Part shown: in pieces, positions 34,048-53,845 of the stretch
Numbering within the stretch: position 1 is the stretch's first letter
Layout of the letters: each line of letters opens with the position of its first letter
Assembly: GCA_021775875.1 (NCBI GenBank)
Contig: JAJFHA010000025.1
Coordinates: forward strand, 1 to 64,000
Reading direction: 5' to 3'
Length of the DNA stretch: 64,000 bases
Source of the DNA: Hyphomicrobiales bacterium
GTDB lineage: Bacteria; Pseudomonadota; Alphaproteobacteria; Rhizobiales; NORP267
Translations under genes and position numbers: made by a program
The notes under the pieces: generated by a model
Databases searched by the model: none
What the model was told of the DNA's origin: nothing
What the model saw: the letters and a program-made list of their open reading frames with translations, nothing else

Positions 34048-35259
34048 TTATTGTGGTCGCCGGGCGCGGACATCGCCTTCCGGGGTCATGAACCGAGCGC
34101 CGTCTTTATATGACCAATTGCGCATGACGCCGTTGCCGCGTTCAACATCCAGTGTCCCGACCCAGGCGCCGAATGTTGCCTGATGGTCGATGGCGCGGAA
34201 TTCTGTTCGCCCGACAAGGGTATCAAATCTGAGCCCTTCAAAGGTATCGATTAAGGCTTCGGTTTCAATTGAACCTGCGGCCTCAATAGCGGCTTTGATG
34301 GCATAAACTGCTGTATAGCCAAGCAGCGATCCGAGCCGGGGGGTGTCGTTGAATGCGGTACGGTAATTCTCGACGAATGCGATATGTGGCGGGCTGTCAA
34401 TTTGTGCCCAGGGATAACCGGTCACGATCCATCCCTCCGGCGTATTGCGTCCCAAGTTGAGCAGCCATTCCGGTTCTCCGGTCAGCAAGCTCAATATTGT
34501 CCGGTCTTCAAACAGGTTTTGGGCATTGCCTTCACGGGTGAATGCGACAAGGTCGCCGCCAAACAGGGCTGAGAAAACACCTTCGGGCTCCGCTTGGGCG
34601 ATGGCTGCAATTGTGGCGGAGGCGTCGATCCTGCCGAGTGGTGGATATTGTTCCGCCACGATTTCAATGCCGGGAATAGCGGCCATTATCAATTGTTTGA
34701 AGCTGGCCGCCGCTGATTGCCCGTACGCATAATTTGGCGCAACGATCGCCCATTTTGTGATCCCGCTTGTCTCGACTGCATCAACCAGCATGGCGGTTTG
34801 CATGTAGGTGTTTGGGCGCAGGCGAAAGGTGTGGCGATTTCCGGATCCAAGCGTCAATGCGTCGGTGAGTGGGGTGGTTGCCAGAAATACAATTTTGTTC
34901 TGATTGGCATAATCAGAAACCGTAAGGGCTGTGCCGGAGAGGAATGTACCGAAAATCAGGGATACTTTTTCGCGGAGAAGCAATTCGCTAGCGACACGAA
35001 CAGCAGTCCCGGCCGTGCCGCCATCGTCGCGGCTGATAATCTCAAGCGGTTTGCCCAAAACCCCGCCAGCGGTGTTGATCTCAGCGAGCGCCATTTGCCA
35101 GCCGTTTCGATACGGCACGTTGAAAGCGGCGTAGCGAGCATACGACGACAATTCACCGATCCGGATGGTGTCGTCATCGGCTTTTGCAGTGGTGGCAATA
35201 GATGCCGTGAGAACAAGCGTTGTCAGGACAATTCCAAAAAAACCAATTCGTTCATTCAT
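34048..35259 (-). CDS. ABC transporter substrate-binding protein, branched-chain amino acid/amide type (orphan)
   Basis: I start at the ATG 35259, which gives a signal peptide ending near AKA (about residue 27); a longer frame from 35289 would hide it. The 403-residue periplasmic-binding fold (Peripla_BP_6) includes NTAGGVLGKPLEIISRDDGG and the hinge segments typical of LivK/AmiC-like receptors, which bind amino acids, amides or aromatic acids. No ABC permease or ATPase genes are near. It lies downstream of korAB on the same strand after a 123-base gap, and may deliver the substrate of the heterocycle operon. That link is inference. Confidence 0.85.
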   Translation of the reverse strand: MNERIGFFGIVLTTLVLTASIATTAKADDDTIRIGELSSYARYAAFNVPYRNGWQMALAEINTAGGVLGKPLEIISRDDGGTAGTAVRVASELLLREKVSLIFGTFLSGTALTVSDYANQNKIVFLATTPLTDALTLGSGNRHTFRLRPNTYMQTAMLVDAVETSGITKWAIVAPNYAYGQSAAASFKQLIMAAIPGIEIVAEQYPPLGRIDASATIAAIAQAEPEGVFSALFGGDLVAFTREGNAQNLFEDRTILSLLTGEPEWLLNLGRNTPEGWIVTGYPWAQIDSPPHIAFVENYRTAFNDTPRLGSLLGYTAVYAIKAAIEAAGSIETEALIDTFEGLRFDTLVGRTEFRAIDHQATFGAWVGTLDVERGNGVMRNWSYKDGARFMTPEGDVRARRPQ

Positions 35260-35382: not shown

Positions 35383-36393
35383 TTACCGCACCTGCCATGT
35401 ATGTCCCTGGCTCAAAAGTTTTTTGAGACGGTCACTCACATCGGCCACCGGTCCGGGATTGACGCTGCCATGGGCTTCAAACACAGTCTTTTCTTTTGCA
35501 TAAAAAACGCCAATCGGGGTCGGCATGCCGGGTCCTTCGAGGTAGGCCAGCAGGTTGGCAGCGGTCAAACTGGTTTCATCATGGACCATAATATCGCCTT
35601 CGCTGATACCATTTTCACCGATTTCAACAGCCTTGAGAGAGAGGGTTGCCACATCAAATTGTAAACCGTGACTGCGCTCGGCGCCCCAGATCATCGGTTG
35701 GCCATGTTCAAGATGTAGCAGGTTTTCCAGCGCCGGCTTTTTATCCGTCAATTGATCGTAAATACCGTGATTGAAAACGATACAATCCTGCAGGATTTCC
35801 ACAAAGCCGGTGCCCTGGTGGGCGTGGGCGCGTTTCAGGGTCGGAATCAGGTGCTTTGCGTTTACATCAATGGAGCGGGCGAAAAATGTTGCCCCTGCAC
35901 CCAGCGCGAACCGGCCTGCATGAACCGGTTGGTCTAGCGAACCGTCAAGAGATGTTGGCGATCGGGTGCCTAAACGCGATGTGGGAGACATCTGGCCTTT
36001 GGTCAGGCCGTAAATTTCGTTGTTCAGCAGCAAATAAACCAGATTCATATTCCGGCGCAAAAGATGCAGCAAATGATTGCCGCCAATCGAGAGGGAATCG
36101 CCGTCGCCTGAAACCAGCCAGAGATCAACTTCCGGGTTGGCGATCTTGATGCCGGATGCAATTGCCGGTGCGCGGCCATGGATGGTGTGGAAGCCGTAGG
36201 TTTCCATATAATAGGGAAAGCGCGCGGCGCAGCCAATGCCTGAGACAAAGACTGTATTATCAGGGTCCGCTTCAAGCTCGGCGAGGGTGCGCTGCACGGC
36301 TTTCAGAATGGCGTAATCGCCACAACCGGGGCACCAGCGAACTTCCTGGTCTGTTGCGTAATGCTTGGCGGTGAGTTTTTCCGGCGCGTTCAT
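35383..36393 (-). CDS. korB: 2-oxoacid:ferredoxin oxidoreductase, beta subunit (KorB)
   Basis: The 336-residue subunit binds thiamine diphosphate (GDGDSLSIGGNHLLH to LNNEIYGLTKGQ) and a [4Fe-4S] cluster with cysteines in RWCPGCGDY, GIGCAARFP and LQDCIVFN. Together with KorA it oxidises a 2-oxo acid, most likely 2-oxoglutarate, to the CoA ester and CO2, reducing ferredoxin. Its start overlaps the korA stop by four bases. Its placement next to a ferredoxin-dependent reductase operon suggests low-potential electron supply, as KorAB does for benzoyl-CoA reductase in some bacteria. Confidence 0.93.
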   Translation of the reverse strand: MNAPEKLTAKHYATDQEVRWCPGCGDYAILKAVQRTLAELEADPDNTVFVSGIGCAARFPYYMETYGFHTIHGRAPAIASGIKIANPEVDLWLVSGDGDSLSIGGNHLLHLLRRNMNLVYLLLNNEIYGLTKGQMSPTSRLGTRSPTSLDGSLDQPVHAGRFALGAGATFFARSIDVNAKHLIPTLKRAHAHQGTGFVEILQDCIVFNHGIYDQLTDKKPALENLLHLEHGQPMIWGAERSHGLQFDVATLSLKAVEIGENGISEGDIMVHDETSLTAANLLAYLEGPGMPTPIGVFYAKEKTVFEAHGSVNPGPVADVSDRLKKLLSQGHTWQVR

Positions 36394-38270
36394 TGTCCGG
36401 CTCCTTCCAGTATTTCCTTGGCGGCGTCGACAATCTCAGCCACCTTGAACGGGCGGCCTGATACTTTGGCGAGGGATTTGAAATCGCCTTGATATTCCGC
36501 TCTCAAAAGAGTGGCGAGCTGGCCCATATTCATTTCAGGAACCAGAACATGCTCGAACCCGGCCAACAGCTCACCCAGATTTGCGGGCAGGGGCCAGATA
36601 TTCGATAATTGAATGTGGCTGGCATCAAGGCCGTCGTCGATCAGGGTTTCAACCGCCCGGCTGGTGGGGCCGTAAACAGATCCCCAAGCAACAATTGCGA
36701 GTTTTCCGGACAGGTTGCCCTGATCCACGGTCTGAGCCGGAATATCGTTTGCGATGCGGTTTATCTTTTCGGCCCGCAAATGGGTCATGTGATTGTGGTT
36801 GTCTGGATCGTAGGAAATTTCGCCAGTGATATTCTGGCGTTCGATACCGCCGATCCGGTGAATACCGCCGGGGATTCCGGGTGCGACCCATGGTCGGGCC
36901 AAGGTTGTTTCATCGCGCCGGTACGGAGCGAAATCATCCGGCAGGGCTTTATCGACAGGCGCAAATGCATACCCTTCCAGGTCCGGGATCGGCCAGGGTT
37001 CGGATGCGTTGGCCAAATAGCCGTCCATCAACAATATGACCGGGGTCATATATTTGATGGCGATACGTACCGCTTCGATCGCAGTATCGAAACAATGTCC
37101 GGGAGTGTTGGCTGACAGCACCACAACGGGGGTGTCGGAGTTGCGCCCCCAAACCGACTGATACAGATCAGATTGTTCGGTCTTGGTGGGCATGCCGGTG
37201 GACGGACCACCACGTTGGACATTGACGATGACGAGGGGAAGTTCTGTTGCTGCCGCAAGACCGATGGCTTCCGTCTTGAGGGCAATACCCGGTCCCGACG
37301 ATCCGGTAATTCCGACCTGACCGGCATAGGACGCACCGATCGCCGCGCAGGCGGCTGCGATCTCGTCTTCGGCCTGAAACGTGGTGATATTATATTCGGC
37401 ACCGAGCCTGGTCAGGATATGCAGAATGTTGGAAGCCGGGGTGATCGGATACGAACAATAGACCAGATTTCGCTCGGCGAAATTTGCGCCAGCCGTCAGG
37501 CCCCAGCAAAGGGACTCGATCCCCGTTACGCCGCGATAATCTCCGGGTGCGATTTTTGCGGCCGGTACGCGAAAAGGGTGAATATCCATCTCGGTGACTT
37601 CGCCGTAGGCAAAGCCTGCATCGAGTGCGGCGTTGTTGATCACCGCGATATCACCAAGCTTGCCGAACTTGGCCTTGATCCATTCAGCCGCCGGGGTCTT
37701 TTCCCGGTCAAACAGCCAGAGTACGAGGCCCAACGCCCACATATTTTTGGAGCGGATGCTGTCCTTGTTTGAAACATCGACATTCTCAAGCGACTTGATG
37801 GTTTTGAGCGTCAGCTCCGTCATTGGAATATTGATGACCCGGTATGCATTCAGGCTGTCGTCTTCAAGGGGGTTGGATTCGTACCCGGCCTTGGTGAGAT
37901 TGCGCTCCTGGAACGCGGTTTCGTCGGCGATGATCAGGCCGCCTTTTTGCAGATCAACCAGATTGACCTTGAGGGCAGCCGGGTTCATCACCACCAGCAC
38001 ATCGATCATGTCACCAGACGTTAGAATTTGCCGGGCGCCAAAATTTATCTGGAACGAAGATACGCCGAAGGTGGTTCCAACCGGCGCCCTGATTTCAGCC
38101 GGAAAATCCGGGAATGTTGCCAGATCGTTGCCCGCCAATGCGGTTGCGAGCGTAAATTGCCCACCGGTAATTTGCATGCCGTCGCCTGAATCTCCGGCAA
38201 ACCGGACAACGGCGGATTCCCGTGTTTCCCGGTCTATATGTCCTGGTGGGTTGGTACTTTCAATATTCAT
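36390..38270 (-). CDS. korA: 2-oxoacid:ferredoxin oxidoreductase, gamma-alpha fusion subunit (KorA)
   Basis: The gamma domain (about 20-210, with RFAGDSGDGMQITGGQ) is fused to the alpha domain (about 230-600) with SYPITPASNILH, FQAEDEIAA and VNVQRGGPSTGMPTKTEQSD, the CoA/TPP-binding features of the KorA family. The fused gamma-alpha plus separate beta layout is that of aerobic 2-oxoglutarate:ferredoxin oxidoreductases, different from the four-subunit oxalate oxidoreductase of acetogens. The ATG at 38270 is preceded by GGGAACAGG; a start at 38300 is possible. The 160 bases between korA and the DUF1185 gene are AT-rich and may hold a separate promoter. Confidence 0.92.
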   Translation of the reverse strand: MNIESTNPPGHIDRETRESAVVRFAGDSGDGMQITGGQFTLATALAGNDLATFPDFPAEIRAPVGTTFGVSSFQINFGARQILTSGDMIDVLVVMNPAALKVNLVDLQKGGLIIADETAFQERNLTKAGYESNPLEDDSLNAYRVINIPMTELTLKTIKSLENVDVSNKDSIRSKNMWALGLVLWLFDREKTPAAEWIKAKFGKLGDIAVINNAALDAGFAYGEVTEMDIHPFRVPAAKIAPGDYRGVTGIESLCWGLTAGANFAERNLVYCSYPITPASNILHILTRLGAEYNITTFQAEDEIAAACAAIGASYAGQVGITGSSGPGIALKTEAIGLAAATELPLVIVNVQRGGPSTGMPTKTEQSDLYQSVWGRNSDTPVVVLSANTPGHCFDTAIEAVRIAIKYMTPVILLMDGYLANASEPWPIPDLEGYAFAPVDKALPDDFAPYRRDETTLARPWVAPGIPGGIHRIGGIERQNITGEISYDPDNHNHMTHLRAEKINRIANDIPAQTVDQGNLSGKLAIVAWGSVYGPTSRAVETLIDDGLDASHIQLSNIWPLPANLGELLAGFEHVLVPEMNMGQLATLLRAEYQGDFKSLAKVSGRPFKVAEIVDAAKEILEGAGQ

Positions 38271-38430
38271 GGCCTGTTCCCAAATCGGATTGGTCTGCAT
38301 ATTTGCACGAGATATTTTAGGTGTAAATATTTATGATATATCGGCGTATTCGTTCTTTTTATGATGCTTTTTGTTCTTTCAGAATGGATAACTATCGGTC
38401 TTGGTGCGACTTTTCCAATACAAAATTGTG

Positions 38431-39015
38431 TTATCTGAGTCCGTCATTTTTGGATATCTCCGATACAGTCAACCCGCCAAGACGGGTATGCGGCCTTGGC
38501 CCTGTTGCCATCGCGAGAATGTAGCAAATTTCATCGGCCTTGGGGGCGTCTGAAATTCCAACTTCGATAGCGTCGAAATGGCTGCGCACATAGGCGGCAT
38601 TTATATGGTGCAGGGGGATATCGATTCTGGCACCCATGCCGCCGACCTTTTTGGTGGACGGGACGATGGCACGTGCTTCGCCGAGTAATTCACGCATAGC
38701 ATAGCCACCGGCAACGTGCCAGAGGGCACCGTGTTCCAGTTCGCCATTTTCTCCGACAATCGCGCCTTTGCCATAAGCTTCGACTTTCGAGATATCGCCA
38801 CCCGCGAGCGCTTCCACCAATCTGGATGATATGCGCAGGCCTTCGGGTTTCAGGGCTTCCATCATGGGCAAGAGGTCTTCTACATATTGCCCCGCATAGG
38901 GGTTGCGGATGATCATAGCTGCATAACCTTTGCGGACCGGGGTTTCCAGCTTCGGGCCGCCATCATGAAACGTGTCTTCGATATGCACGACGATTTTTCT
39001 GATTTCAATGTCCAT
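38431..39015 (-). CDS. DUF1185 (amino acid synthesis family) protein
   Basis: A 194-residue cytosolic protein of a family of unknown activity labelled amino acid synthesis. Visible conserved parts are VHIEDTFHDGG near the start, AAMIIRNPYAG and STKKVGGMGARIDIPLHH in the second half. The ATG at 39015 overlaps the UPF0280 stop (TGATG). It is the last gene of the eight-gene heterocycle operon. The family often travels with 6-hydroxynicotinate-reductase-like and UPF0280 genes, but its reaction is not known to me. Confidence 0.85.
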   Translation of the reverse strand: MDIEIRKIVVHIEDTFHDGGPKLETPVRKGYAAMIIRNPYAGQYVEDLLPMMEALKPEGLRISSRLVEALAGGDISKVEAYGKGAIVGENGELEHGALWHVAGGYAMRELLGEARAIVPSTKKVGGMGARIDIPLHHINAAYVRSHFDAIEVGISDAPKADEICYILAMATGPRPHTRLGGLTVSEISKNDGLR

Positions 39016-39929
39016 CAATTTGCTCCGGTATGAAAGGGCTCAAAAGCTATATAGTTAGCGACATTGCCGATGGTTCGCGTGGCTTCGGCGAGTTTTAAAT
39101 GTGCACCGATAATGCTGTTAATCTGATAAAAATTGGTCGCTAGGGCTGCGCCATTGTCCAGCGCGTCCGAAATTTGAGCGCTAGACAAATCCCCGATATT
39201 TGTCACGACCAGCAGGTCGTCAAGATCAGAATCCGGGTCAAGCTGATGGGCCGGGGTCCGGGAAATAAAATCAGAATTTATATTCACGTGATTGGCGATA
39301 ATTGTTGCTGCGGCGTCAGCGCTGGCGGCGTTCGCTGCCAATGCTGTTGCGGAATCGGCGATGCCGAGCGAAAATGAACGCCCATGCCTGCCCGACGTGG
39401 CGATGCCACCAATACCGGATGCGGCATCAATGTGAGCGTTTCCCTGGATCGCGGCGAATTCTGGTTCAGGGCGGTTGATGAGGCCAATAGTCAGCGTTTT
39501 CGCGTCTTCTACATGGACAGCGATATCGCCGCCATTGTTGACAAATGCGCGGGATAGCAAAGCGGCCTGGCGCATCTCATCCATGATCTCGTCGGCAACC
39601 GCGCCTGCCACCGCCGCCATCGGCGTGATAAAATGCTGATTTCCGAATGGTGCGATTGCGGCTTGCATGCGCCGGGCAACGGGGGACGAAAATTCCTGAG
39701 CCGGGTCGTATCTGCACCGCAATGTTTCCAGCTCCGACACCAATTCATCAAGAATGGTCGCAAACCTGGATTGTGCAGCCGCGAAGGCGGTAGATTGATG
39801 ATCCTTGTCGCCCCAGACGCCGATCACCAGATCAATCGGACCATGGTTGAGATGCAGTCGCAATGGCTCATCCGGCTGCGACCGGCTGGGCAGGATATCT
39901 GTGAGGAGGGTTGCGGTCGCCGATTGCAT
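39015..39929 (-). CDS. UPF0280 protein, ApbE-like fold; candidate flavin transferase
   Basis: The 304-residue protein belongs to UPF0280, a family grouped with the ApbE superfamily. The GIATSGRHGRSFSLGIADSA segment (about 176-195) and the following ASADAAAT parallel the ApbE metal/FAD region. ApbE enzymes attach FMN to serine or threonine of target proteins. The neighbour 6-hydroxynicotinate-reductase homologue belongs to a family whose characterised member (Eubacterium barkeri) carries covalent flavin, so a dedicated flavinylation role is a reasonable inference. Start two bases after the MarR stop. Confidence 0.82.
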   Translation of the reverse strand: MQSATATLLTDILPSRSQPDEPLRLHLNHGPIDLVIGVWGDKDHQSTAFAAAQSRFATILDELVSELETLRCRYDPAQEFSSPVARRMQAAIAPFGNQHFITPMAAVAGAVADEIMDEMRQAALLSRAFVNNGGDIAVHVEDAKTLTIGLINRPEPEFAAIQGNAHIDAASGIGGIATSGRHGRSFSLGIADSATALAANAASADAAATIIANHVNINSDFISRTPAHQLDPDSDLDDLLVVTNIGDLSSAQISDALDNGAALATNFYQINSIIGAHLKLAEATRTIGNVANYIAFEPFHTGAN

Positions 39930-39930
39930 A

Positions 39931-40386
39931 TCAGGTCAATTTTCCAAGCAGGGAGAGAAGCGTCTTCTGCTCATCAATCGTCAATGGAGCCAGGGTCTCT
40001 CTGGTAACCCGCGTTGCTGCGGTGCGCATACGGCTCGTCTGGTCGGCGCCATCAGGAGACAGACGCAGCAAAACCCGGCGAGCATCGTCGGGGTCAGTGC
40101 GCTGGGCGACAGAACCACGTTTCTTCAATCTGGAAATCACACCAAATGTCGTTGCTGGGTCCATGGCCGCCATCCGCCCCAAGCGATTTTGCGAAATTTC
40201 GCCGGCATCCTGTAACTTGATCATGGTTGTAAATTGGGTCGGGGTGACGTCAAATTCTTCCATCACGGATTCAAATATCGACGACGCACGCTGGTGAGCG
40301 CGGCGCAGAACGAAACCAATCTGTTGTTCCACCTGATACTCACCAGATAGCTGATCAGTCGGGGCTGTGGCTGTTTTTACGGTCAT
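39931..40386 (-). CDS. MarR family transcriptional regulator
   Basis: The 151-residue winged-helix protein has the MarR layout: dimerisation helices at both ends and the DNA-reading region ISQNRLGRMAAMDPATTFGVIS, then the wing RTDPDDARRVLLRLSPDG. Such regulators release DNA on binding aromatic acids. Being inside the heterocycle operon, with four bases overlapping the reductase gene, it probably controls its own operon; a palindrome upstream of hyuA (49418-49429) is the likely operator. Confidence 0.9.
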   Translation of the reverse strand: MTVKTATAPTDQLSGEYQVEQQIGFVLRRAHQRASSIFESVMEEFDVTPTQFTTMIKLQDAGEISQNRLGRMAAMDPATTFGVISRLKKRGSVAQRTDPDDARRVLLRLSPDGADQTSRMRTAATRVTRETLAPLTIDEQKTLLSLLGKLT

Positions 40387-41882
40387 CTGGTTTCTTTCAG
40401 CGGCCAGGGCGGATCGTCATTCATCAGCTCGATCCGGGCGTCGCCCGCAAATTCGCGGATAACGTCGTTGACCGCCACGATATCCTCTACATGGCCACCA
40501 TTGCGGCTGTAAACGTCTTCCGGAATTGTGAATTCAATCGGCGCGACAATGGCTGGAGTCGGGACATAGCCAAACGAATTATCCGGCATTTTCAACACAT
40601 CCACCATGATTGTGATGCCACCGCCGGGCCAGACATAAACCGGCGCACCGCCCATGGTCACCTTGCTGATCTGGTCAGATACCGAGCGGGTCAGGCTGAC
40701 CGGGTTTTTGGTAACACCTGCGCGCAATGACCCGCCAGCTCCTGCCATGAACAGGATTGTCGTCAGAGACGGTTCGCAATTCTCTCCGATCAGATCGATG
40801 GTGCGGCGTAAGTCTGCGGGCATCTCTGCGACCACGGGTTTCAAGTCTTCATCTAGAATACAATAGAGCGCGTCTTCGCCGGTGGTGCTGGTGAATAAAA
40901 GCCGCAAGCCCGGCCATGCCTTTTTCGGATCTATCGATTTCAAAAGCGTGAGGGGATCGGAAACGTCCGTGCCGCCCCATCCGGTGCCCGGTTCCGCAAC
41001 TTGAAAATAACGCCCGGCGGTGGATTTGCGCCCGATGATACGGATACCAGCTTCCGGCATATCAAGACATTTTCCGGCCTGATGTTCGGTCAACACACCT
41101 GTAATATGATCGTCTACAACAATCACTTCGTCCACATGGTCAAACCATTGCTGGGCAAAAATACCGATGGTTGCCGACCCGCAGCCGACGCGCATGCGCC
41201 GTTCTTCAACGCCGTTGACGATCGGGGCCTTGCCCGCCTGAATGGTCAGGTCAGATCCGTTTTCGATTGAAATATCAAGTGCGCCCTTGTTGCACAGCGT
41301 CAGCATCGCCTGGCAGGTAACGTTGCCTTCTTTCTTGGAGCCACCGGTTAAATGGCGAACGCCGCCGATGGAGAGCATTTGGGAACCATATTCGGCGGTG
41401 GTGACATGGCCGATTTCTTCGCCTTCGCACAGGATCGCAGCGCGTTCAGCGCCCAGATGCCGGTCAGTATCGATCTTCACTTTGACGCCGCAATAACTGA
41501 ATATGGCTTCGCTGACGACGGTTACGGTATCGACGCCGTTATGCTGGCTGCCCACAATAAAGGGTGCTGGTTTATAATCGGGATAGGTGGTTCCGGCCCC
41601 GACGCCGGATACAAAGGTGGTTTCCGGGCGCAGCATATCGCCGGACCAATCTTCCGAAGAACCTGCAAATTCCACCAGCTTGCCATTTTCATCTATCGCC
41701 TGAGACATCAGCAAAACGGGATCAGTGCGCACCAGCATACCGTCTTTGTTGGCATAACGGCTACATGCCCCGGCACGGTCCGGGCGGATGCGACAGAGAA
41801 CCGGGCAGGCGTCGCAGCGGATGATGCCTTCATTGCCTTCGCGGGCGCCGAATTTACTTGTCCTGTCAGATAAATTGGTCAT
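40383..41882 (-). CDS. 6-hydroxynicotinate reductase-like iron-sulfur flavoprotein
   Basis: The 499-residue protein is related to 6-hydroxynicotinate reductase of nicotinate-fermenting clostridia, which reduces the pyridone ring with ferredoxin electrons and holds FeS clusters and covalent flavin. An N-terminal cluster motif is visible: Cys23, Cys26, Cys30 and Cys40 (CDACPVLCR, then AGAC). Further conserved Cys lie at 131, 190, 197 and 234; near the last, CGSAT recalls, but does not exactly match, the SGAT flavinylation motif. Overlaps by four bases with both neighbours. The true substrate may be another N-heterocycle. Confidence 0.82.
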   Translation of the reverse strand: MTNLSDRTSKFGAREGNEGIIRCDACPVLCRIRPDRAGACSRYANKDGMLVRTDPVLLMSQAIDENGKLVEFAGSSEDWSGDMLRPETTFVSGVGAGTTYPDYKPAPFIVGSQHNGVDTVTVVSEAIFSYCGVKVKIDTDRHLGAERAAILCEGEEIGHVTTAEYGSQMLSIGGVRHLTGGSKKEGNVTCQAMLTLCNKGALDISIENGSDLTIQAGKAPIVNGVEERRMRVGCGSATIGIFAQQWFDHVDEVIVVDDHITGVLTEHQAGKCLDMPEAGIRIIGRKSTAGRYFQVAEPGTGWGGTDVSDPLTLLKSIDPKKAWPGLRLLFTSTTGEDALYCILDEDLKPVVAEMPADLRRTIDLIGENCEPSLTTILFMAGAGGSLRAGVTKNPVSLTRSVSDQISKVTMGGAPVYVWPGGGITIMVDVLKMPDNSFGYVPTPAIVAPIEFTIPEDVYSRNGGHVEDIVAVNDVIREFAGDARIELMNDDPPWPLKETR

Positions 41883-44635
41883 GAGCCGGGTGTCTCCTGC
41901 AAGGCTTGCCAGATGCGGTGGGGCAAGGCCGGGGCGCGGCGCACCACAATACCGGTGGCGTGCCGGATTGCGCCGAAAATGGCAGGGGGTGTGGGAACAA
42001 GCGCCGGTTCGCCAATGCCTTTGGCACCAAACGGCCCGTGATGTTCCGGGTCTTCGATCAGCTTGATATCGATTTGCGGCACGTCACCAAAGGTCGGGAT
42101 CAGATAATCGTGTAGATTTTCGGTTCTGCCGGGAATGAATTCTTCCATCAAGGCCATGCCGATGCCCTGAGCAATACCGCCTTTTATCTGACCTTCCACA
42201 AGTGTTGGGTTGATGGTGCGACCTACATCGTGAGCAGCGACAATGCGTTGCAGTTTCACAGTGCCGAAATCCAGATGCACATCGGCCAAACAAATTTGTG
42301 CCGCGAACCCGTAGGTTGCATAGGGAATGCCCTGGCCTTTTTTATCGAGCGGACTTGTCGGCGGATCAAAGGTGCCAAACCCTTCAAAGACGTTTCCGTT
42401 CTCATTTTGGTCGAGAGAGTCCAGTTCAATGACCCGGCGCACGTTGCCGTCGATAACGCGGATCGCCCCGGCTTCAATCGAGATTTCGGCATTTTTACCT
42501 GCATTGGACATGGCCAAAATCTTTGCGCGTAAATCTTCGCCCGCCAATTGCGCCGCCTTGCCGGATACAAAGGTTTGGCGGGACGCGGAAGTCTTGCCGG
42601 CATCAGGCGTCAAATCGGTATCACCGGTTACCTGTTCGATCTGGCTCACCGGCACCCCAAGGGCATCAGCGCATATTTGGCGCATGATCGTATAGGATCC
42701 CTGACCGATATCGACCGCGCCATTATAAAGAGTGATGGTGCCTTCGGGATCAATGGTCAGGCGCATGATGGATGGGTTGGAAAGAGAGGTGTTGCCGCAG
42801 CCGTACCACATACATCCAATCCCGACACCACGGCGGATGCGGCCGTCGGATTTGTTGAAGGTTTCAGCATCTTTCAGCATTGTCTGCCAATTTTCGCGCA
42901 GGGCATCAAGACATTGGTCCAGCCCGGCGCTGTGGGTCAAAACCTGCCCGGTGGCGGTTTTGTCGCCTGCCCGGATCGCGTTCAGGTGACGAATTTCCAG
43001 CCGGTCCATGGAAAGCTGCTCGGCCAGATCATCCATCAGGGTTTCGTTGGCGATGGCAGCTTGCGGCACGCCAAATCCGCGAAATGCGCCGGACGGGTTG
43101 GCGTTGGTGAGGACAGCAGCCGACCGGTTCAGGATATTCGGCACCAGATAAGGCCCGGTGGCGTGAACCGGCACCCGGCCGGCTACCGTTGGGCCCCAGG
43201 ATGCATAAGCGCCTGTATCAAATTGCCCATCGGATTCGTAATTTATCAGCCGCCCATTTTTATCAGCGCTGGCTTTCGCCCAGATTTTCGATGGATGACG
43301 CTTGGTACTGGCCGCCATGGATTCGATCCGGCTCAAAACGGTTCTTATCGGATGGTTCAGTTTCAAAGCGGCCACCGCCAGCATCGGCTGGACCAATACG
43401 TCGAGCTTGCCGCCAAACCCGCCGCCGCAGGCAGAGGGGATGATGCGCACTGCATCCGCATCGACCCCGAGCACATAAGCAACTTCGTCGCGGTCCATAT
43501 AAGGGGCTTGCGTGGACGCTGTGACAGCCACCCGGCCATTGCCTTCAGGAACAGCGAAGCCTGCTTCGGGTTCGATATAGGCATGTTCGACGAATCCGGT
43601 CTCAAAGCGACCTTCCGCGGTGGCGGCGATATCCGCGTCGCTGTCACCGATCCGGCCCTTTTCCACATAACCGCGGATCAAAACATTGTCCGGCCATTCC
43701 TCGTGAAGCGCCGGGGCGGATGGGTCAGTGCCACCATCGATACCGATGACGGGGGTGTCTTCGCGCCACGTGATCAGGCTCGCAACATCAGCAAATTCAA
43801 TCGCGTCGCGGGCACCAACCAAAGCGCAAACCGGTTCGCCGCGATGGCGCACATGGGCTTCGGCGAAAACCGGCTGGTGGCGCAAATTCGGGAAAATTCC
43901 ATAGCCGTTGCCGCCCGGAATATCGGCGGCTGTCAGCACAGTTTTGATGCCGGGATTGGTTTTCAGGAAAGCGTCTATATCAGAAATTTCAAAGCGGGCA
44001 CTTGGATAGGGGGAGCGGATGGCACGGAGCCAGAAGCTATTATCCGGCGCAACATCATCGCCGAATTTCTCGGTGCCTGATACCTTGGCGCGGCCATCGG
44101 TTCGCTCAACACGCGCACCAACGGCGTGGCCTGTGTCCGGGCATTCGCTGGCAAGATTGCCGTTGCCGCCAGCAAGCGCGGCGACCGCGTCGATGATTGG
44201 CTCATACCCGGTACAGCGGCACAAAACGCCGCCAAGGGCATCGGCAATTTCGGTTCGGTCGGGATTCTTGTTGCGGGTCAGCAAATCGGTTGCAGCCATC
44301 AACATGCCCGGCGTGCAAATGCCGCATTGGGCCGCGCCATGAGCGAGGAACGCGTCACGCAGTTTTTCCAATACAGGGTTATTTTTCTGCTCGACGGTTT
44401 CGATGTTTGCGCCATTGGCTTGCGCCGCTGCTACCAGACACGAGCAAACCTGGCCCCCGTCCAAGAGGATGGTGCAAGCGCCGCAATCGCCTGCGTCGCA
44501 GCCAACCTTGGTTCCGGTCAGGCCAAGATCATTCCGTAACAGGCTGGCAAGAGTATCGAAAGGATGCGCGCTTGTTTCAACCCTCTTGCCGTTCAGGGAA
44601 AACGCAACGGTGATTTTGCTGGGCTGTTCGTTCAT
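41879..44635 (-). CDS. Xanthine dehydrogenase-family molybdoenzyme, fused [2Fe-2S] and molybdopterin subunits
   Basis: The 918-residue protein starts with a [2Fe-2S] domain pair (about 8-160: GCDAGDCGAC, then CGICTPGM and CRCTGYEPI) and continues as the molybdopterin-binding subunit (about 170-910) with CGGGFGGK, NPSGAFRGFG and the catalytic glutamate in GAKGIGEPALVPTPPAI. Such enzymes hydroxylate N-heterocycles next to the ring nitrogen using water. Small and large subunits are usually separate; here they are one chain, while the FAD subunit is encoded upstream with a four-base overlap. Substrate unknown; a pyridine or similar ring carboxylate fits the neighbours. Confidence 0.92.
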   Translation of the reverse strand: MNEQPSKITVAFSLNGKRVETSAHPFDTLASLLRNDLGLTGTKVGCDAGDCGACTILLDGGQVCSCLVAAAQANGANIETVEQKNNPVLEKLRDAFLAHGAAQCGICTPGMLMAATDLLTRNKNPDRTEIADALGGVLCRCTGYEPIIDAVAALAGGNGNLASECPDTGHAVGARVERTDGRAKVSGTEKFGDDVAPDNSFWLRAIRSPYPSARFEISDIDAFLKTNPGIKTVLTAADIPGGNGYGIFPNLRHQPVFAEAHVRHRGEPVCALVGARDAIEFADVASLITWREDTPVIGIDGGTDPSAPALHEEWPDNVLIRGYVEKGRIGDSDADIAATAEGRFETGFVEHAYIEPEAGFAVPEGNGRVAVTASTQAPYMDRDEVAYVLGVDADAVRIIPSACGGGFGGKLDVLVQPMLAVAALKLNHPIRTVLSRIESMAASTKRHPSKIWAKASADKNGRLINYESDGQFDTGAYASWGPTVAGRVPVHATGPYLVPNILNRSAAVLTNANPSGAFRGFGVPQAAIANETLMDDLAEQLSMDRLEIRHLNAIRAGDKTATGQVLTHSAGLDQCLDALRENWQTMLKDAETFNKSDGRIRRGVGIGCMWYGCGNTSLSNPSIMRLTIDPEGTITLYNGAVDIGQGSYTIMRQICADALGVPVSQIEQVTGDTDLTPDAGKTSASRQTFVSGKAAQLAGEDLRAKILAMSNAGKNAEISIEAGAIRVIDGNVRRVIELDSLDQNENGNVFEGFGTFDPPTSPLDKKGQGIPYATYGFAAQICLADVHLDFGTVKLQRIVAAHDVGRTINPTLVEGQIKGGIAQGIGMALMEEFIPGRTENLHDYLIPTFGDVPQIDIKLIEDPEHHGPFGAKGIGEPALVPTPPAIFGAIRHATGIVVRRAPALPHRIWQALQETPGS

Positions 44636-45507
44636 GATGCCACCTGCTGCAATAACGGTCCGGATATCTGGCGTAACATGTCACTGACAAGCTTGATCGC
44701 CGCGGCATTGCGGTATTCACCACTGGCGCGAATATCTCCAATCGGGTTCAGGTCGGCAAACTGGCTGTCCTCGACAAGTCGGGATAAATCGCCGGTTATC
44801 GGCTGGCCCTTGAGACGATCTTCAAGCGCTGTCAAGCGCACGGCTTTTTCCGAGCATGCCCCAACCGAAATGAATGCCTGTTCCACGCTGTCGCCATTGC
44901 CCGGTACAATCACGCCTGCCACCATGGCGATAGAGATAACCAGATAGCGCCGTGCGCCGAGCTTTAGAAAATGAGAAATTGTTGCGTCCGGCCTTTCTGG
45001 AATCAGGATGGCGGTGACCAATTCGTCCTGCGCCAAGACCGTACTGCGATAACCGGAGATGAATTCGAGGATGGGAATGCAGCGCGTTCCGGCTTGTCCC
45101 TGAATTTCAACCTGCGCCTCCATGGCTGCAAGACAGGGAACACCGTCGGCGGCGGGGGAAGCGTTGCAGATATTCCCTGCCAGCGTGCCCCGGTTCTGAA
45201 TTTGCCGTCCGCCAACATCTCGTGCTGCAAGTTTCAAACTGTCAAACAGGGCCGGTAATTCTGCGTCTGCAATATTGCTCCATGTCGCAAGCGCCCCGAT
45301 CCGCCACATATTGTTTTGCCGGGTGATCCCGCGCAGCTCGGCTAGCTGTGAGATATCCAGAATGTCATGCGTCTGGCGATGGCCCCATGCTTCGCCCGTG
45401 GCGCGGGCCGGGAAAATATCGGTTCCACCCGCCAGGACAGTGAGTGCCGATTTCGCTCTGAGCGCCAGGGCCTCTGTGAGGCTTTGCGGTTGAAAATAGG
45501 ATGCCAT
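44632..45507 (-). CDS. Xanthine dehydrogenase-family FAD-binding subunit
   Basis: The 291-residue subunit has the FAD-binding fold of CoxM/CutM-type proteins. The AGGTDIFPA loop (about 26-34) and the GGRQIQNRGTLAGNICNASPAADG segment (about 96-119) hold the FAD diphosphate, and a CO_deh_flav_C domain follows. It passes electrons from the molybdenum/FeS subunit to the acceptor. Overlaps the large-subunit gene by four bases, 8 bases after hyuB. Confidence 0.92.
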   Translation of the reverse strand: MASYFQPQSLTEALALRAKSALTVLAGGTDIFPARATGEAWGHRQTHDILDISQLAELRGITRQNNMWRIGALATWSNIADAELPALFDSLKLAARDVGGRQIQNRGTLAGNICNASPAADGVPCLAAMEAQVEIQGQAGTRCIPILEFISGYRSTVLAQDELVTAILIPERPDATISHFLKLGARRYLVISIAMVAGVIVPGNGDSVEQAFISVGACSEKAVRLTALEDRLKGQPITGDLSRLVEDSQFADLNPIGDIRASGEYRNAAAIKLVSDMLRQISGPLLQQVAS

Positions 45508-45515
45508 AATTGTTC

Positions 45516-47267
45516 CTATTCACCGGGAGCGCCGGTTTCGCCCGGCGTACCGGGTACGGTATCCGGGTCGAAATTGTATAATTCTCGCGCTGTTTCAGGC
45601 GAATAATAACCCCGCTTCAAATCACGTTGGATCAATTTGGAATCGCGTTTTGCCGAATCCCCATAGCCACCACCACCGGGGGTCTGCACGGCAATGCTCT
45701 CGCCCGTCCCCAACGGCAAATCCTGATCTTTGGATCGGTGAGGCGGGCTGTAATCGCCATCGCCGCGATGCAGCACGATCATATTGGGCGCACCATCGGC
45801 GCCACCAACAGCGCCTTGCGGTCCAAAGCGTCCATGGTCCATCACAAAGGAGGCACGGGCATTGCCGCGCAGTAATTTGATTTCATAATCCACACCAAAT
45901 CCACCGCGATGCTCACCGGCCCCGCCGGAACCCTCACGAAGGGCAAACCGGGTGAACAGGATCGGGAATTTCTGTTCCATAACCTCAACCGGCGGCATTT
46001 TGGAAATACCGATTGTTGAACACCCGTTGGTGAGGCCGTCATGATCGGCATTGCCGCCATAGCCACCCCCGGTCATCAGATACATGACGTAATCCTTGCC
46101 GGTTTCAGGGTCGTCGCCGCCTAGCGAAAAATTGCCGCTGGTGCCGGCCGGTGCCGCTGTAACTTCATCGGGAATGGCCTGGACAAGGGCTGCAAAAACG
46201 GCTTCGGCGATGCGCTGGGATACTTCTGCCGCGCAGCCGGAAACCGGGCGCGGATATTGGGCATCCAGAAATGTTCCTTCCGGGCGCTTGATGTTTAGCG
46301 GTTCAAATACGCCTGCATTAATCGGTACGTCCGGGAAAACATGCTTGATCGCCAGATAAATAGAGGAATAGGTTGTGGCCATTACTGAATTCATCGGACC
46401 CGCACATGGTGCGCTTGATCCAGTCATATCGAAATCAAGATTATCACCCTCGCGGGTGATCTTCATGACGATCTTCAGGGGTTCATTATTGACCCCGTCT
46501 GAATCCACAAAAGCTTCGCCAATATAGTTTCCTTGCGGGATGCGGTTGATATGGGCGCGCATCAATTGGGCCGAGCGGTTGCGGATTTCCCCAATCGCCT
46601 GGTCAACCGTTTCGCTTCCGTAACGGTCCAGCAAATGCGCAAGCCGCCGCGCACCTACCTTGAGAGCGGCTTCCTGCGCGCGGATATCACCAATGCGCTG
46701 GTCGGCGATCCGCATATTGGATTTGAGGATCGCGAAAATTTCCTGATCCATCTCGCCGCGTTTGAATAATTTGACCGGTGGAAGACGTAATCCTTCTTGC
46801 TCAACTTCGGTGGCGTGGGCGGAAAACCCGCCCGGCACCATGCCGCCAATGTCGGGCCAGTGACCGGTATTTTGCAACCAGCAATAGAGCTTGCCGTCAT
46901 AATAGAATGGCATTGCGAACCGCACATCCATCAAATGAGTGCCGCCAAGATAGGGGTCGTTGACGATATAAATATCGCCCGGTTCAGGCGCTGCGGTAAT
47001 GCCGGCCTCGATCCGTTCGATGATCGACATGGTTGAATATTGCATTGTGCCGACAAAAATGGGCAGGCCGAATTCACCCTGGGCGATCAGCTCGCCGGTA
47101 TCGCGATGATAAATCCCGTCGGAACGGTCATCGGCTTCAGCGATAACCGGGGAGAATGCAGATCTGGAAAATGCGATATCCATCTCGTCGCAGACCTGCT
47201 GCAAACCGTTCTGGATCACTGTCAGGGTAACGGGATCGATGGGCGTGGATGTCTCTGTGTTGCTCAT
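45516..47267 (-). CDS. hyuB: Hydantoinase/oxoprolinase B subunit
   Basis: A 583-residue HyuB-family protein with the conserved NDPYLGGTHLMDVRFAMPFY region (about 103-122), SAHATEVEQEG and the C-terminal VQTPGGGGYGD. With HyuA it forms an ATP-dependent cyclic-amide hydrolase (N-methylhydantoinase, 5-oxoprolinase) or, in the acetone-carboxylase branch, a carboxylase. The four-base overlap with hyuA and the molybdoenzyme/reductase genes downstream suggest it opens a lactam made from a reduced heterocycle. Confidence 0.92.
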   Translation of the reverse strand: MSNTETSTPIDPVTLTVIQNGLQQVCDEMDIAFSRSAFSPVIAEADDRSDGIYHRDTGELIAQGEFGLPIFVGTMQYSTMSIIERIEAGITAAPEPGDIYIVNDPYLGGTHLMDVRFAMPFYYDGKLYCWLQNTGHWPDIGGMVPGGFSAHATEVEQEGLRLPPVKLFKRGEMDQEIFAILKSNMRIADQRIGDIRAQEAALKVGARRLAHLLDRYGSETVDQAIGEIRNRSAQLMRAHINRIPQGNYIGEAFVDSDGVNNEPLKIVMKITREGDNLDFDMTGSSAPCAGPMNSVMATTYSSIYLAIKHVFPDVPINAGVFEPLNIKRPEGTFLDAQYPRPVSGCAAEVSQRIAEAVFAALVQAIPDEVTAAPAGTSGNFSLGGDDPETGKDYVMYLMTGGGYGGNADHDGLTNGCSTIGISKMPPVEVMEQKFPILFTRFALREGSGGAGEHRGGFGVDYEIKLLRGNARASFVMDHGRFGPQGAVGGADGAPNMIVLHRGDGDYSPPHRSKDQDLPLGTGESIAVQTPGGGGYGDSAKRDSKLIQRDLKRGYYSPETARELYNFDPDTVPGTPGETGAPGE

Positions 47268-49357
47268 TCTGCTGCCATCCCATCTGCGGCTTTGCCTGAC
47301 AAAGGCACGTCGACGATCATGTTGCCAATCTGGTCTACAAGAGCGCTGGTACCCGGTTCGATTAAAAGCGTTGAATCCATTTGTTCCAGAATGGCCGGCC
47401 CGTTGATGGTTGCGCCAAGGGGGACGCGGTCGCGCTCATAGACCGGAATGTCGATTGCCTTGCCGTCAAATATCACCGACCGTGTTGCGGATTTAGCGTC
47501 GGCGAGATTGGCGCAGCGCGCGTCCGCATCCAGCAAAGCGTCGAGCGGGATTTCAGGGCGGATACCGACAACGCTGGTATTGATGTTGACCAGTACCGCT
47601 TCGATTTCCGGTAGATGTACTTCAAACCGCTCGAAATACGCGGCTTCAAAAATTTTCTGAATTTTTTCTCTGGTCACGTCGGGTCCTGGCAATTCGACAC
47701 GGATCAAATGGGTCTGGCCGCGGAACTGCATGTCGGCTGAATGGGTGATCCTGGTCTCGGTGATTTCACTGCCGGCAACTTCATTGGCTTCGATCCCGTG
47801 GTCGCGCTGGGAAAGCATTACTGTTTTCAAAGCTTCGATAGAAACGTCGCCAAGTGATCGGTTGATGGTGTTGACCACATCTTGCCTTAGGTCGGCCACG
47901 AGGCAACCAAGTGCATTGACCAAACCGGGCCGGGCCGGGATCAGAACCTTGGGCAGGGCTAACTCACGGGCCAACGCCACCGCATGCAACGGCCCGGCGC
48001 CGCCAAAAGCAAAGAGGGCAAAATCGCGCGGGTCGTGGCCACGAGATAATGAAACCATGCGGATCGCGCCTGCCATCTGGGTGTTGGCCACATGGATCAT
48101 CGCGGCGGCTGCTTCTTCAATTGTCAGACCGAGGGGCTGTGCGATTTGTTCATCCATGATGTTTCGCACATCATCGAGCGTTACCGCTGGATTGTTTTTT
48201 CCGGCAAACACTTCGAGCCGTAACCGGCCAAGAATGATGTTAGCGTCGGTGATGGTCGGTTTGGTACCGCCCCGGCCATAGGCGACGGGGCCAGGTTCGG
48301 CTCCAGCGCTTTCAGGTCCGACTTCCAGCAACCCGGCGGCATTGATTTTACCGATCGAGCCGCCACCTGCGCCGATGGTGCGTACATCCACCATGGGGAC
48401 ATGGATCGGCAATCCATAATCAATGGCCAGTTCCGAGCTTGTTGATGGTTCGCCGCCGCGCACCAGAGCGACGTCCGTCGAGGTGCCGCCCATATCATAG
48501 GTGATGATATTTTCAATGCTGGCGCGGGATGCCGTTTTTGCTGCTGCAATGACCCCAGACGCAGGCCCGGACATCACCGTTTTGGCAGCCTCATCAACAA
48601 CGATTGCTGCCGATACCGTGCCGCCATTGCCGTTCATGACGAGGAGATCGCGCTTGTAGCCGCTATCTGTAAGCTGGTTTTGTAAATTGGTGATGTAGCG
48701 ATGCAGAACCGGTTGAACGGCTGCATTGACGGACGCAGTGGTGCCGCGCTCAAATTCCCGATACTCCGAAATCAGCTTGTGGCCCACAGTGATAAATTCG
48801 TTTGGCCAGACATCCCGGGCGATTTCTTCGGCGCGTAATTCATGAGCCGGATTGGCATAGGAATGCAGGAAATGGATCACCAATGCTTCCACGCCGTCGG
48901 CGATCAATTGTTGCAGGCAGGCGCGAAACCCGGCTTCATCTAAGTGCGTGATGACGCTACCACGGGCATCCATGCGCTGATTTACTTCGAGGCGGAATTC
49001 GCGCGACACCAGCGGCTCAAATTGCCCGGTCATGCCATAAGGGTTTGGTCGGGTGCGCCTGCCAAGCTCAAGCACATCACGAAAGCCTTTTGTGGTGATC
49101 AGCCCGCACCGGGAGATCTTGCGCTCCAGAATGGCATTGGTGGTAATCGTCGTGCCATGAACGATCAGATCGATGCCTGCTGGCGTTTGCCCGGCGGCTT
49201 CGATCGCATTCAACACACCTGCCGCTTGATTGCCAACGGTCGTTGGTGTTTTGGCAATCGTCATGGCGGTCGGTGCGCTGCCATCTTCGGGGATCACACA
49301 GGTGATCACATCGGTGAACGTGCCGCCAACATCGATGCCAGCCATTACCCGCGTCAT
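47264..49357 (-). CDS. hyuA: Hydantoinase/oxoprolinase A subunit
   Basis: The 697-residue ASKHA-fold ATPase subunit has phosphate loops AGIDVGGTFTDV near the start and DMGGTSTDVALV in the middle, and a conserved GAGGGSIGKI. HyuA phosphorylates the ring carbonyl and HyuB completes ring opening in oxoprolinase-type enzymes. I use the ATG at 49357; a GTG at 49375 in frame is possible. First gene of the operon; the 160-base upstream region before the divergent glycosyltransferase carries the palindrome at 49418-49429. Confidence 0.92.
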   Translation of the reverse strand: MTRVMAGIDVGGTFTDVITCVIPEDGSAPTAMTIAKTPTTVGNQAAGVLNAIEAAGQTPAGIDLIVHGTTITTNAILERKISRCGLITTKGFRDVLELGRRTRPNPYGMTGQFEPLVSREFRLEVNQRMDARGSVITHLDEAGFRACLQQLIADGVEALVIHFLHSYANPAHELRAEEIARDVWPNEFITVGHKLISEYREFERGTTASVNAAVQPVLHRYITNLQNQLTDSGYKRDLLVMNGNGGTVSAAIVVDEAAKTVMSGPASGVIAAAKTASRASIENIITYDMGGTSTDVALVRGGEPSTSSELAIDYGLPIHVPMVDVRTIGAGGGSIGKINAAGLLEVGPESAGAEPGPVAYGRGGTKPTITDANIILGRLRLEVFAGKNNPAVTLDDVRNIMDEQIAQPLGLTIEEAAAAMIHVANTQMAGAIRMVSLSRGHDPRDFALFAFGGAGPLHAVALARELALPKVLIPARPGLVNALGCLVADLRQDVVNTINRSLGDVSIEALKTVMLSQRDHGIEANEVAGSEITETRITHSADMQFRGQTHLIRVELPGPDVTREKIQKIFEAAYFERFEVHLPEIEAVLVNINTSVVGIRPEIPLDALLDADARCANLADAKSATRSVIFDGKAIDIPVYERDRVPLGATINGPAILEQMDSTLLIEPGTSALVDQIGNMIVDVPLSGKAADGMAAE

Positions 49358-50618: not shown

Positions 50619-51824
50619 ATGACAGTCCCAGCCCAACCAAAAGACCCGCTCGGCGCATTCATGGATTATCCGCAAGTGCGGGTTGAAAATGCTTCAAGCG
50701 GTCCGCTCGACGGCCTTACTTTTGCGGTCAAGGACCTGTTTGACGTTGCGGGATATCCAACCGGATGCGGACACCCGGATATTCTGGCGAAGGCGGTGCC
50801 AGCCGAAAATCATGCGCCAGCGGTGGCGCAATTACTTGATGCAGGCGCCCGGTTTGTTGGCAAAACGCTTACTGATGAAATTGCTTTCAGCACGAATGGC
50901 ATCAACCATCATTATGGATCTCCGGTGAATTCGAAAACACCCGACCGTATCAGCGGTGGTTCGTCATCCGGTTCAGTGGCGGCTGTTGCCGGGGGAAAAG
51001 TTGATTTTGCCCTTGGCACCGATACCGGGGGATCGATCCGTGCTCCCGCAAGCTATTGCGGATTGCCCGGTTTGCGAACAACCCATGGTCGGTTGAACCT
51101 TGAAGGCTGTATGGATCTTGCACCCAGTTTCGATACCCTTGGATGGTTTGCGCGAGATATGGCCACCTATAAACGGGTAGGGCGCATTCTGTTTGATCCG
51201 GTCGATGCGGTGGAAATCGGTGATCTGAAACCAGCAATCGTTTTGGATGTATTGCCTATACTTGATTCGGGAGCGCAAGCGGTTTTTGCTGAAACCGTTC
51301 AGCGTTTGCAAGATGTGCTTGGCGAAATCGGTTCGATTGAAGTCGCCGAGGGCAGGCTTGATGACTGGTACCGGGTGGGACGCACCTGTCAGGTTCATGA
51401 GATATGGACCCAGCATGGTGAATGGATTGTCAGAGATAGTCCTGAATTTGGGCCGGGTGTGCGGGAGCGCCTGGAATGGGGGCAGCAATTGACAGGGGAA
51501 GAAATTCAGGAAGCGACTAATCAGCGCGTTTCCATCAGGACGCACATCCACGAGGCGATACGTCGTCACGGTATTTTGGTGCTGCCGACTTCGCCGGGGA
51601 TCGCGCCATTGAAATCGTTGCCCATGGAGAAAATAGAAAAATTCCGCGACCGGGCGCTGAAAACACTATGTCTCTCTGGTTTGTCCGGAGTGCCGCAAAT
51701 CAGCATGCCGATCGCTCAATTTGATGGCGCGCCGTTTGGCATATCCTTGATGGGCTCACCCGGCACAGATGAAGCGTTGATGGACCTGGCTGAAAAAATC
51801 GAAGCTGCGTTGGGTGTGGCCTGA
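50619..51824 (+). CDS. Amidase (amidase signature family)
   Basis: The 401-residue enzyme has the Ser-cisSer-Lys triad of the family: Lys38 in AVKDLFDV, the serine run in ISGGSSSGSVAA (113-122) and the nucleophile Ser139 in TDTGGSIRAPA. It hydrolyses a carboxamide to acid and ammonia. The short form (about 400 residues) is close to the AtzF/indoleacetamide-hydrolase-like amidases lacking extra domains. With the nitrile hydratase 8 kb away it could complete nitrile-to-acid conversion, but they are not cotranscribed. Its start is 28 bases after the glycosyltransferase stop. Confidence 0.9.
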   Translation: MTVPAQPKDPLGAFMDYPQVRVENASSGPLDGLTFAVKDLFDVAGYPTGCGHPDILAKAVPAENHAPAVAQLLDAGARFVGKTLTDEIAFSTNGINHHYGSPVNSKTPDRISGGSSSGSVAAVAGGKVDFALGTDTGGSIRAPASYCGLPGLRTTHGRLNLEGCMDLAPSFDTLGWFARDMATYKRVGRILFDPVDAVEIGDLKPAIVLDVLPILDSGAQAVFAETVQRLQDVLGEIGSIEVAEGRLDDWYRVGRTCQVHEIWTQHGEWIVRDSPEFGPGVRERLEWGQQLTGEEIQEATNQRVSIRTHIHEAIRRHGILVLPTSPGIAPLKSLPMEKIEKFRDRALKTLCLSGLSGVPQISMPIAQFDGAPFGISLMGSPGTDEALMDLAEKIEAALGVA

Positions 51825-51892
51825 CAGCGTTAACAGGGACTGAAGCTAAAAGCTGCAATTTGGGCGACTGATTTCACCGGATATTTTTGTGG

Positions 51893-51987
51893 CCGTGGCA
51901 TATTGCAATCACATCAGCCAAGCCGGTCCGCCTACCGGCCCCTAAGGCCGACGCCGTGTAGAGAGGTCTCGCGGCGTCGGTTTTTTT
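51893..51987 (+). ncRNA. Candidate small RNA or 3' leader ending at a strong terminator
   Basis: Between the amidase and the convergent ggt gene lies a TTGGGC/TATTTT pair, 16 bases apart (51860-51887). It is followed by a hairpin GCCGGT...ACCGGC (about 51922-51939) and then the terminator at 51948-51987. The arrangement would give a transcript of about 95 bases. I recognise no known RNA family, and the promoter match is weak. Confidence 0.25.
51948..51987 (+). terminator. Intrinsic terminator
   Basis: A nine-pair stem (CCGACGCCG with CGGCGTCGG) is followed by seven Ts on the plus strand, 124 bases after the amidase stop and just short of the convergent ggt gene. Confidence 0.9.
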
Positions 51988-51990
51988 ATT

Positions 51991-53814: not shown

Positions 53815-53845
53815 GACCAAGACGCCAGAACAGGTTCGGGGCTGA

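Follow-up and report, generated by a model that had tools for sequence, protein, structure and literature searches.

A nicotinate-type reductive operon in which an ATP-dependent HyuAB enzyme probably takes the place of enamidase

How is a partially reduced pyridine ring opened when the operon that encodes the reductase lacks a gene for enamidase? This question was raised by eight minus-strand genes, extending from position 49357 to 38431, in a Hyphomicrobiales genome (contig JAJFHA010000025.1, positions 1 to 64,000; this whole 64,000-nucleotide stretch is called the window). In order of transcription, these genes encode the HyuA and HyuB subunits of an ATP-dependent lactamase-like enzyme, the two subunits of a molybdenum hydroxylase, a 6-hydroxynicotinate-reductase-like protein (Hnr), a MarR-type regulator, a UPF0280 protein and a DUF1185 protein. 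A preliminary description had read them as one operon for reductive breakdown of an N-heterocycle, built on Hnr, with HyuAB as a possible substitute for enamidase. All eight open reading frames were confirmed at that place, their seven junctions comprising five overlaps of 4 bases and gaps of 8 bases and 1 base, and construction of the operon on Hnr was supported. Our preferred reading, to which we assign a probability of roughly 0.7, is that the operon serves the catabolism of nicotinate or a closely related pyridine carboxylate, in which the hydroxylase and Hnr would act in succession and HyuAB would then open the ring with ATP in place of enamidase.

The distribution of the two openers was followed in genomes and in individual loci. 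Hnr was detected in 32 of 398 Pseudomonadota genomes (a 33rd match, of 36 residues in G072, was dropped), and 107 Hnr loci were assembled from 19 extended loci of these 32 genomes, 8 of 26 plasmid matches and 80 named contigs kept from at least 590 confirmed Hnr relatives in a genome collection; one row without Hnr, L050, was dropped. A Sulfitobacter amidohydrolase encoded beside Hnr is an enamidase homologue, matching Eubacterium barkeri enamidase (2vun) with an E value of 1e-106. Hnr-type HyuA was present at 46 of the 107 loci and enamidase at 31, both at none and neither at 30, of which 15 were shorter than 19 kb. Among the 32 Hnr genomes, HyuA (E <= 1e-180) was found in 17 and enamidase (at least 61% identity) in 17, both in two (G123 and G194) and neither in none, so that the two together accounted for 32 of 32 (p = 2e-7 by Fisher's test, which here and below ignores relatedness); neither the close HyuA nor the close enamidase type was found among the few candidates scored per genome in the other 366. 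In a set of 56 Hnr genomes, consisting of these 32 and 24 chosen from the 80 named, HyuA was present in 34, enamidase (51% identity or more) in 25, both in G123, G194 and G417, and neither in none (p = 1e-12). Hnr-type HyuA (55% or more) was set apart from its paralogues, one of which reached 51% and the rest 44% or less. HyuB was present in all 18 HyuA genomes tested of the 34, at 67–74% identity outside the window genome (G000), and in some was encoded far from HyuA. At L134, L118 and other Reyranella loci, HyuA is encoded in the Hnr cluster and HyuB elsewhere in the genome; at L134, HyuA is followed by an enolase-superfamily-like gene, as judged by reading its translation.

Replacement of enamidase by HyuAB, and recurrence of this swap in related bacteria, is well supported by sequence comparison. 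On the Hnr tree, from which L047 and L136 were omitted because of a split or short Hnr call, there were 12 opener changes among 88 labelled rows of 106, at least seven of them forced by starred branches, against 27.7 on average when labels were shuffled; 12 of the labels were taken from genome-level searches, and G417, with both openers, was counted as HyuA by locus. In one pair of relatives, HyuAB and enamidase are found at equivalent positions, with conserved sequence on either side. L097 and L106, from marine alphaproteobacterial genomes, encode Hnr proteins that are 88.5% identical and share aligned pieces of 71–75% DNA identity. On the left, a 590-column piece at the second DUF1185 gene is 73.6% identical; after this gene come HyuA and HyuB in L097 (16520–20223) and enamidase in L106 (13504–14655, minus strand); on the right is a 522-base piece, also 73.6% identical, that looks from its translation like an isochorismatase-type hydrolase gene.

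These observations bear on the proposal, which we consider unlikely, that HyuAB clusters break down other heterocycles than enamidase clusters do, with each opener matched to its own Hnr product. Such a division would agree with the near absence of co-occurrence between the openers and with extra enzymes, for example a Rieske oxygenase, in some clusters, but Hnr is not sorted by opener on the tree, no Hnr column separates the two sets (best balanced accuracy 0.83), and the nearly 90% identical Hnr proteins of L097 and L106 are associated with opposite openers in largely syntenic clusters. In addition, a fused molybdenum enzyme like that of the window occurred with HyuA at 36 loci and with enamidase at 21, while a NicB-type enzyme occurred with HyuA at 2 and with enamidase at 4. 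The association of each hydroxylase type with both openers suggests one common intermediate. The preliminary suggestion that HyuAB stands in for enamidase was supported by complete coverage of the 32 genomes, by the lack of any locus with both openers and by the same-place swap.

Properties of HyuA (47264–49357, minus strand; an alternative upstream GTG start is at 49375) and HyuB (45516–47267, minus strand) are compatible with this role. The ATP motifs and the metal-ligand residues of the caprolactamase subunit CapB used for comparison were those of PMC8453981. HyuA, which matched Pfam Hydantoinase_A and Hydant_A_N, has ATP motifs at residues 15, 294 and 358. Two of these are phosphate motifs (DVGGTFTD and DMGGTSTD) and the other, for adenosine, is GAEPGP; conservation of their key D and G residues was 97% or more among 47 HyuA proteins linked to Hnr. 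In HyuB (Pfam Hydantoinase_B), H111, D114 and H136 are at least 97% conserved in 35 copies and are spaced like three of the four metal ligands of CapB; the first ligand of this Asp-His-Asp-His site does not fit HyuB by spacing, D47 being a candidate. The nearest NCBIfam model of HyuA is caprolactamase alpha, and the caprolactamase scores of HyuA and HyuB were 482.6 and 320.2 bits, below the equivalog cutoffs of 1000. The window proteins belong to the same families as CapAB and OplAB and keep the ATP and most metal-site residues, but score far below the CapA/CapB cutoffs, and their predicted substrate is 1,4,5,6-tetrahydro-6-oxonicotinate (THON) instead of caprolactam, valerolactam or oxoproline. 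The six-membered delta-valerolactam is opened with ATP by OplAB, a member of this family (PMC11033972), and since THON is also a six-membered lactam, its ATP-driven opening by HyuAB would be reasonable chemistry.

In the proposed sequence of reactions, the hydroxylase would add a hydroxyl group at ring carbon 6 and Hnr would reduce the resulting 6-hydroxynicotinate to THON, with electrons probably provided by reduced ferredoxin from an adjacent 2-oxoacid oxidoreductase. HyuAB would then open THON at the cost of ATP, through activation at the ATP site of HyuA and hydrolysis at the metal site of HyuB, a role equal to that of the amidohydrolase-type enamidase in relatives. The open-chain product would be deaminated and then converted towards glutarate, while UPF0280 would probably equip Hnr with flavin and the MarR protein would regulate the pathway.

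Several findings weigh against this interpretation. Both openers were present in three of the 56 Hnr genomes, and 11 of the 46 HyuA loci had no HyuB within the stretch seen. Since few candidates were scored per genome, openers may have been missed, and the disregard of relatedness affects the Fisher values. No phylogenetically independent pair went the same way (4 starred pairs in one tree and 11 in the other), but such pairs were too few for significance, with a median p of 0.125 in each tree. The hydroxylase could take another substrate. Finally, an enamidase homologue (G000:C24:47655–48812) that is 41–42% identical to Hnr-linked enamidases is encoded elsewhere in the window genome, so that ring opening there may not depend on HyuAB alone; the claim in the preliminary description that no enamidase gene is present is thus correct within the operon, but not genome-wide.

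It is quite unlikely that, in the window genome, this C24 protein opens THON and HyuAB hydrolyses some other cyclic amide or a side product. The C24 protein scored 335 bits against 2vun, near the 360 bits of an Hnr-linked enamidase, but its gene is located in an apparent operon of its own (L139 6417–10352; G000:C24 44916–48851) with genes for MarR, an HpaB-type monooxygenase and DUF1185, homologues 67% identical to it were noted in two genomes, G238 and G289, in which Hnr was not found, and it is HyuAB that heads the Hnr operon with overlapping genes. The homologues of 41–44% from G000, G238 and G289 form a set separate from Hnr-linked enamidases; the gene adjoins DUF1185 at all three loci seen, with HpaB nearby in two (G000 and G289). 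This points to a separate oxidative pathway and also ties DUF1185 to enamidase-like chemistry, and clusters of this type possibly represent an undescribed N-heterocycle pathway.

Least probable of all is action of the operon on a nitrogen ring other than a pyridine carboxylate, with Hnr a distant namesake, for although the comparison by which Hnr was named was with annotated relatives, and the molybdenum enzyme fits no NCBIfam equivalog cutoff, mean column identity in the Hnr family is 63% across 44 diverse members, Hnr is encoded beside a true enamidase homologue at 31 of 107 loci, and strain SG-6C, whose Hnr homologue is encoded in a conserved cluster, is able to grow on nicotinate (PMC3511419).

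The name given to Hnr (40383–41882, minus strand) derives from plasmid-encoded relatives, 58–63% identical and annotated as 6-hydroxynicotinate reductase, and from PMC3511419. Seven of the eight families of the operon were confirmed by Pfam and NCBIfam together, the exception being Hnr, which had no match in either at E <= 0.001 and no credible match in the PDB. A search of PDB sequences with the Hnr profile gave nothing convincing, and no Hnr relative was found in a scan of viral contigs. A model of the 499-residue protein (mean pLDDT 81.8) matched no PDB entry at E <= 0.001, the best VIA-align Z being 3.2 for the whole model, uncut into domains, which does not allow a new fold to be claimed. 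An N-terminal four-Cys motif was present in 104 of 106 homologues. At L047 (G016:C1:2969781–2971258), Hnr is split into two overlapping frames, by a frameshift or a sequencing error. Hnr clusters were noted on 26 plasmid records, 14 of them from Sulfitobacter or Pseudosulfitobacter, which suggests spread via marine Roseobacter plasmids. A 487-residue protein with no Pfam match (L052 2740–4203) has homologues at Hnr loci L032, L044, L056, L058, L085 and L109.

The preliminary description had proposed an aerobic, ATP-using variant for a pyridine or related ring. Of this, the swap to an ATP-dependent opener was supported and the ring is most probably nicotinate, but an aerobic Hnr pathway was already known, having been proposed in PMC3511419 for Azorhizobium and Bradyrhizobiaceae. 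According to that paper, the Hnr homologue of SG-6C, an aerobe of the Bradyrhizobiaceae, is 42% identical to the E. barkeri enzyme, its cluster is conserved in Azorhizobium caulinodans and others, and the downstream route in Azorhizobium leads to glutarate. The Azorhizobium/SG-6C cluster is described as holding the first three pathway steps, and enamidase is therefore implied there; the window operon differs in HyuAB, the fused FeS/molybdopterin hydroxylase and the neighbouring 2-oxoacid oxidoreductase. Nicotinate fermentation by E. barkeri likewise comprises a hydroxylase, Hnr and hydrolytic opening of THON, but this organism is anaerobic, its bifunctional enamidase also deaminates, giving 2-formylglutarate (PMC9304392), and its downstream route differs from that to glutarate in Azorhizobium (PMC3511419). 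Thus, the aerobic setting is not new, and the novelty lies with the ring opener, electron source and accessory proteins. No paper joining '6-hydroxynicotin' with 'hydantoinase' was found in a search that left out most subscription papers and all preprints, which is weak evidence of absence.

The molybdenum hydroxylase of the operon is complete, with an FAD subunit (44632–45507; Pfam FAD_binding_5 and CO_deh_flav_C) and a fused [2Fe-2S] and molybdopterin subunit (41879–44635; Pfam Fer2, Fer2_2, MoCoBD_1 and MoCoBD_2), both on the minus strand. Eight FeS cysteines and Glu876 of the latter were at least 97% conserved in 79 copies. No molybdenum enzyme was recognised at 16 of the 107 Hnr loci.

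Hnr was exactly paired with UPF0280 (39015–39929, minus strand; NCBIfam NF003322). UPF0280 (E <= 1e-10) was found in 32 of the 398 genomes, the identical set to that with Hnr, and at 106 of 107 Hnr loci, on the same strand as Hnr in all 106; at the one remaining locus, L101, the sequence stops just past Hnr. The UPF0280 model (pLDDT 93.8) has an ApbE fold, with a Z of 20.7 to DVU1097 (2o34) and of 15.2–17.8 to ApbE, Ftp and FmnB entries (root-mean-square deviation 3.0–4.0 over 205–227 residues) as opposed to 7.8 or less for other folds. The fold is shared with ApbE flavin transferases together with an A-D-x3-T motif, present in 100 of 103 sequences, which resembles that of the ApbE metal site. 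E. barkeri Hnr reportedly carries covalent flavin, and UPF0280 is a candidate flavin loader of Hnr. Two differences count against a standard ApbE role. The catalytic His of ApbE is His257 of Vibrio cholerae and its target motif is D-x-x-[S/T]-G-A-[S/T] (PMC12052999), but His was present in the ATSG..ADxxxT segment of only 20 of 103 UPF0280 proteins, as judged by sequence comparison, and the target motif was absent from all 106 Hnr and all eight operon proteins searched. A broader proposal, to which we give clearly less than even odds, is that UPF0280 is a new cytosolic flavin transferase dedicated to Hnr, with a non-ApbE attachment site, and that the pathway is a kit in which the hydroxylase (NicB or fused molybdenum type), electron donor (ferredoxin-NADP reductase, FNR, or 2-oxoacid:ferredoxin oxidoreductase) and opener (enamidase or HyuAB) are exchangeable around a fixed Hnr-UPF0280 pair. 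No paper containing 'UPF0280' was found in a literature search of the same scope and equally weak as evidence of absence.

Genes for a 2-oxoacid:acceptor oxidoreductase (38300–35383) start 130 bases downstream of DUF1185. The alpha subunit (36390–38300; above the cutoff of NCBIfam TIGR03710) is the probable source of reduced ferredoxin, and its gene overlaps by 4 bases that for the beta subunit (35383–36393; Pfam TPP_enzyme_C); next is a gene for a Liv-type solute-binding protein (34048–35259; Pfam Peripla_BP_6), likely to function in substrate uptake, all three being on the minus strand. The functional unit thus probably extends past 38431 to include these genes, which the preliminary description had not covered, any more than the exact pairing of Hnr with UPF0280. 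No promoter-like site was found on searching the gap before the oxidoreductase and the region upstream of HyuA. At L059, the nearest relative by Hnr, the gene for oxidoreductase alpha has the same position but is truncated where the contig stops, and the oxidoreductase is also near Hnr at L097, L119, L121, L123 and L136. In E. barkeri, Hnr is said to take electrons from ferredoxin. FNR was encoded near Hnr at 16 of 107 loci, never together with the oxidoreductase, and 48 of 61 Hnr genomes had FNR and 10 the oxidoreductase, with 2 genomes having both and 5 neither (p = 1.6e-5), a comparison biased by inclusion of five genomes because the oxidoreductase is near Hnr. Without these five, FNR was present in 1 of 5 oxidoreductase genomes versus 46 of 51 others (p = 0.0016); the window genome gave no match to FNR. 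A second substitution, of the adjacent 2-oxoacid:ferredoxin oxidoreductase for FNR, is probable, and from the five genomes with neither it follows that other donors exist or were missed. The solute-binding protein falls in the same similarity cluster as proteins of 44 other Hnr loci, with a homologue of >45% identity in 43. Genes for CoA-transferase III (18 loci), a mu-crystallin-like protein (9) and acyl-CoA synthetase (6) recur near Hnr (flanks of L125, L133 and L134), in keeping with exit from glutarate via glutaryl-CoA; the best match of the window genome to the L125 CoA-transferase was 43%.

The MarR-type regulator (39931–40386, minus strand; Pfam MarR) is encoded at 59 of 107 Hnr loci, in 14 between Hnr and UPF0280. 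DUF1185 (38431–39018, minus strand, TTG start; AA_synth, Pfam PF06684) occurs at 84, sometimes in two copies. Its identity as a deaminase needed after HyuAB was considered and rejected, since it was present at 30 of 31 enamidase loci versus 34 of 46 HyuA loci, the reverse of prediction. DUF1185 had been linked to amino acids in part because transporter genes of the branched-chain type are its neighbours (PMC2954203). Such genes are common in Hnr clusters, which may explain the name 'amino acid synthesis'. The co-occurrence search proposed in the preliminary description (398 genomes, 107 loci) yielded, besides the matching Hnr and UPF0280 sets, the identical eight genes in identical order at five loci (L064, L068, L072, L073 and L085), and because of this recurrence the set appears to be more than a chance grouping.

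Other genes of the window flank this unit. Those at 19670–34015 look like an oxalate/formate cluster: they encode formate-tetrahydrofolate ligase, CoA-transferase III, a tripartite tricarboxylate transporter, a formate-dehydrogenase-like pair and a TPP enzyme that was read as oxalyl-CoA decarboxylase. Those at 50619–56027 encode an amidase, with weak homologues (38–39%) at two Hnr loci, and a gamma-glutamyltransferase, a beta-keto acid cleavage enzyme and a DRL/SAF-domain oxidoreductase, which recurred at none of the Hnr loci searched.

Most likely, then, the operon serves to degrade nicotinic acid (vitamin B3) or a closely related compound via partial ring reduction, a substrate and reactions predicted from gene content. 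Two unrelated enzymes, of which one is ATP-dependent, would serve at the same step of this pathway and have been switched repeatedly in bacteria using pyridines such as vitamin B3. A HyuAB subfamily that otherwise bears just the name hydantoinase/oxoprolinase is thereby assigned a likely reaction, and the exact pairing with Hnr gives UPF0280 a testable role.

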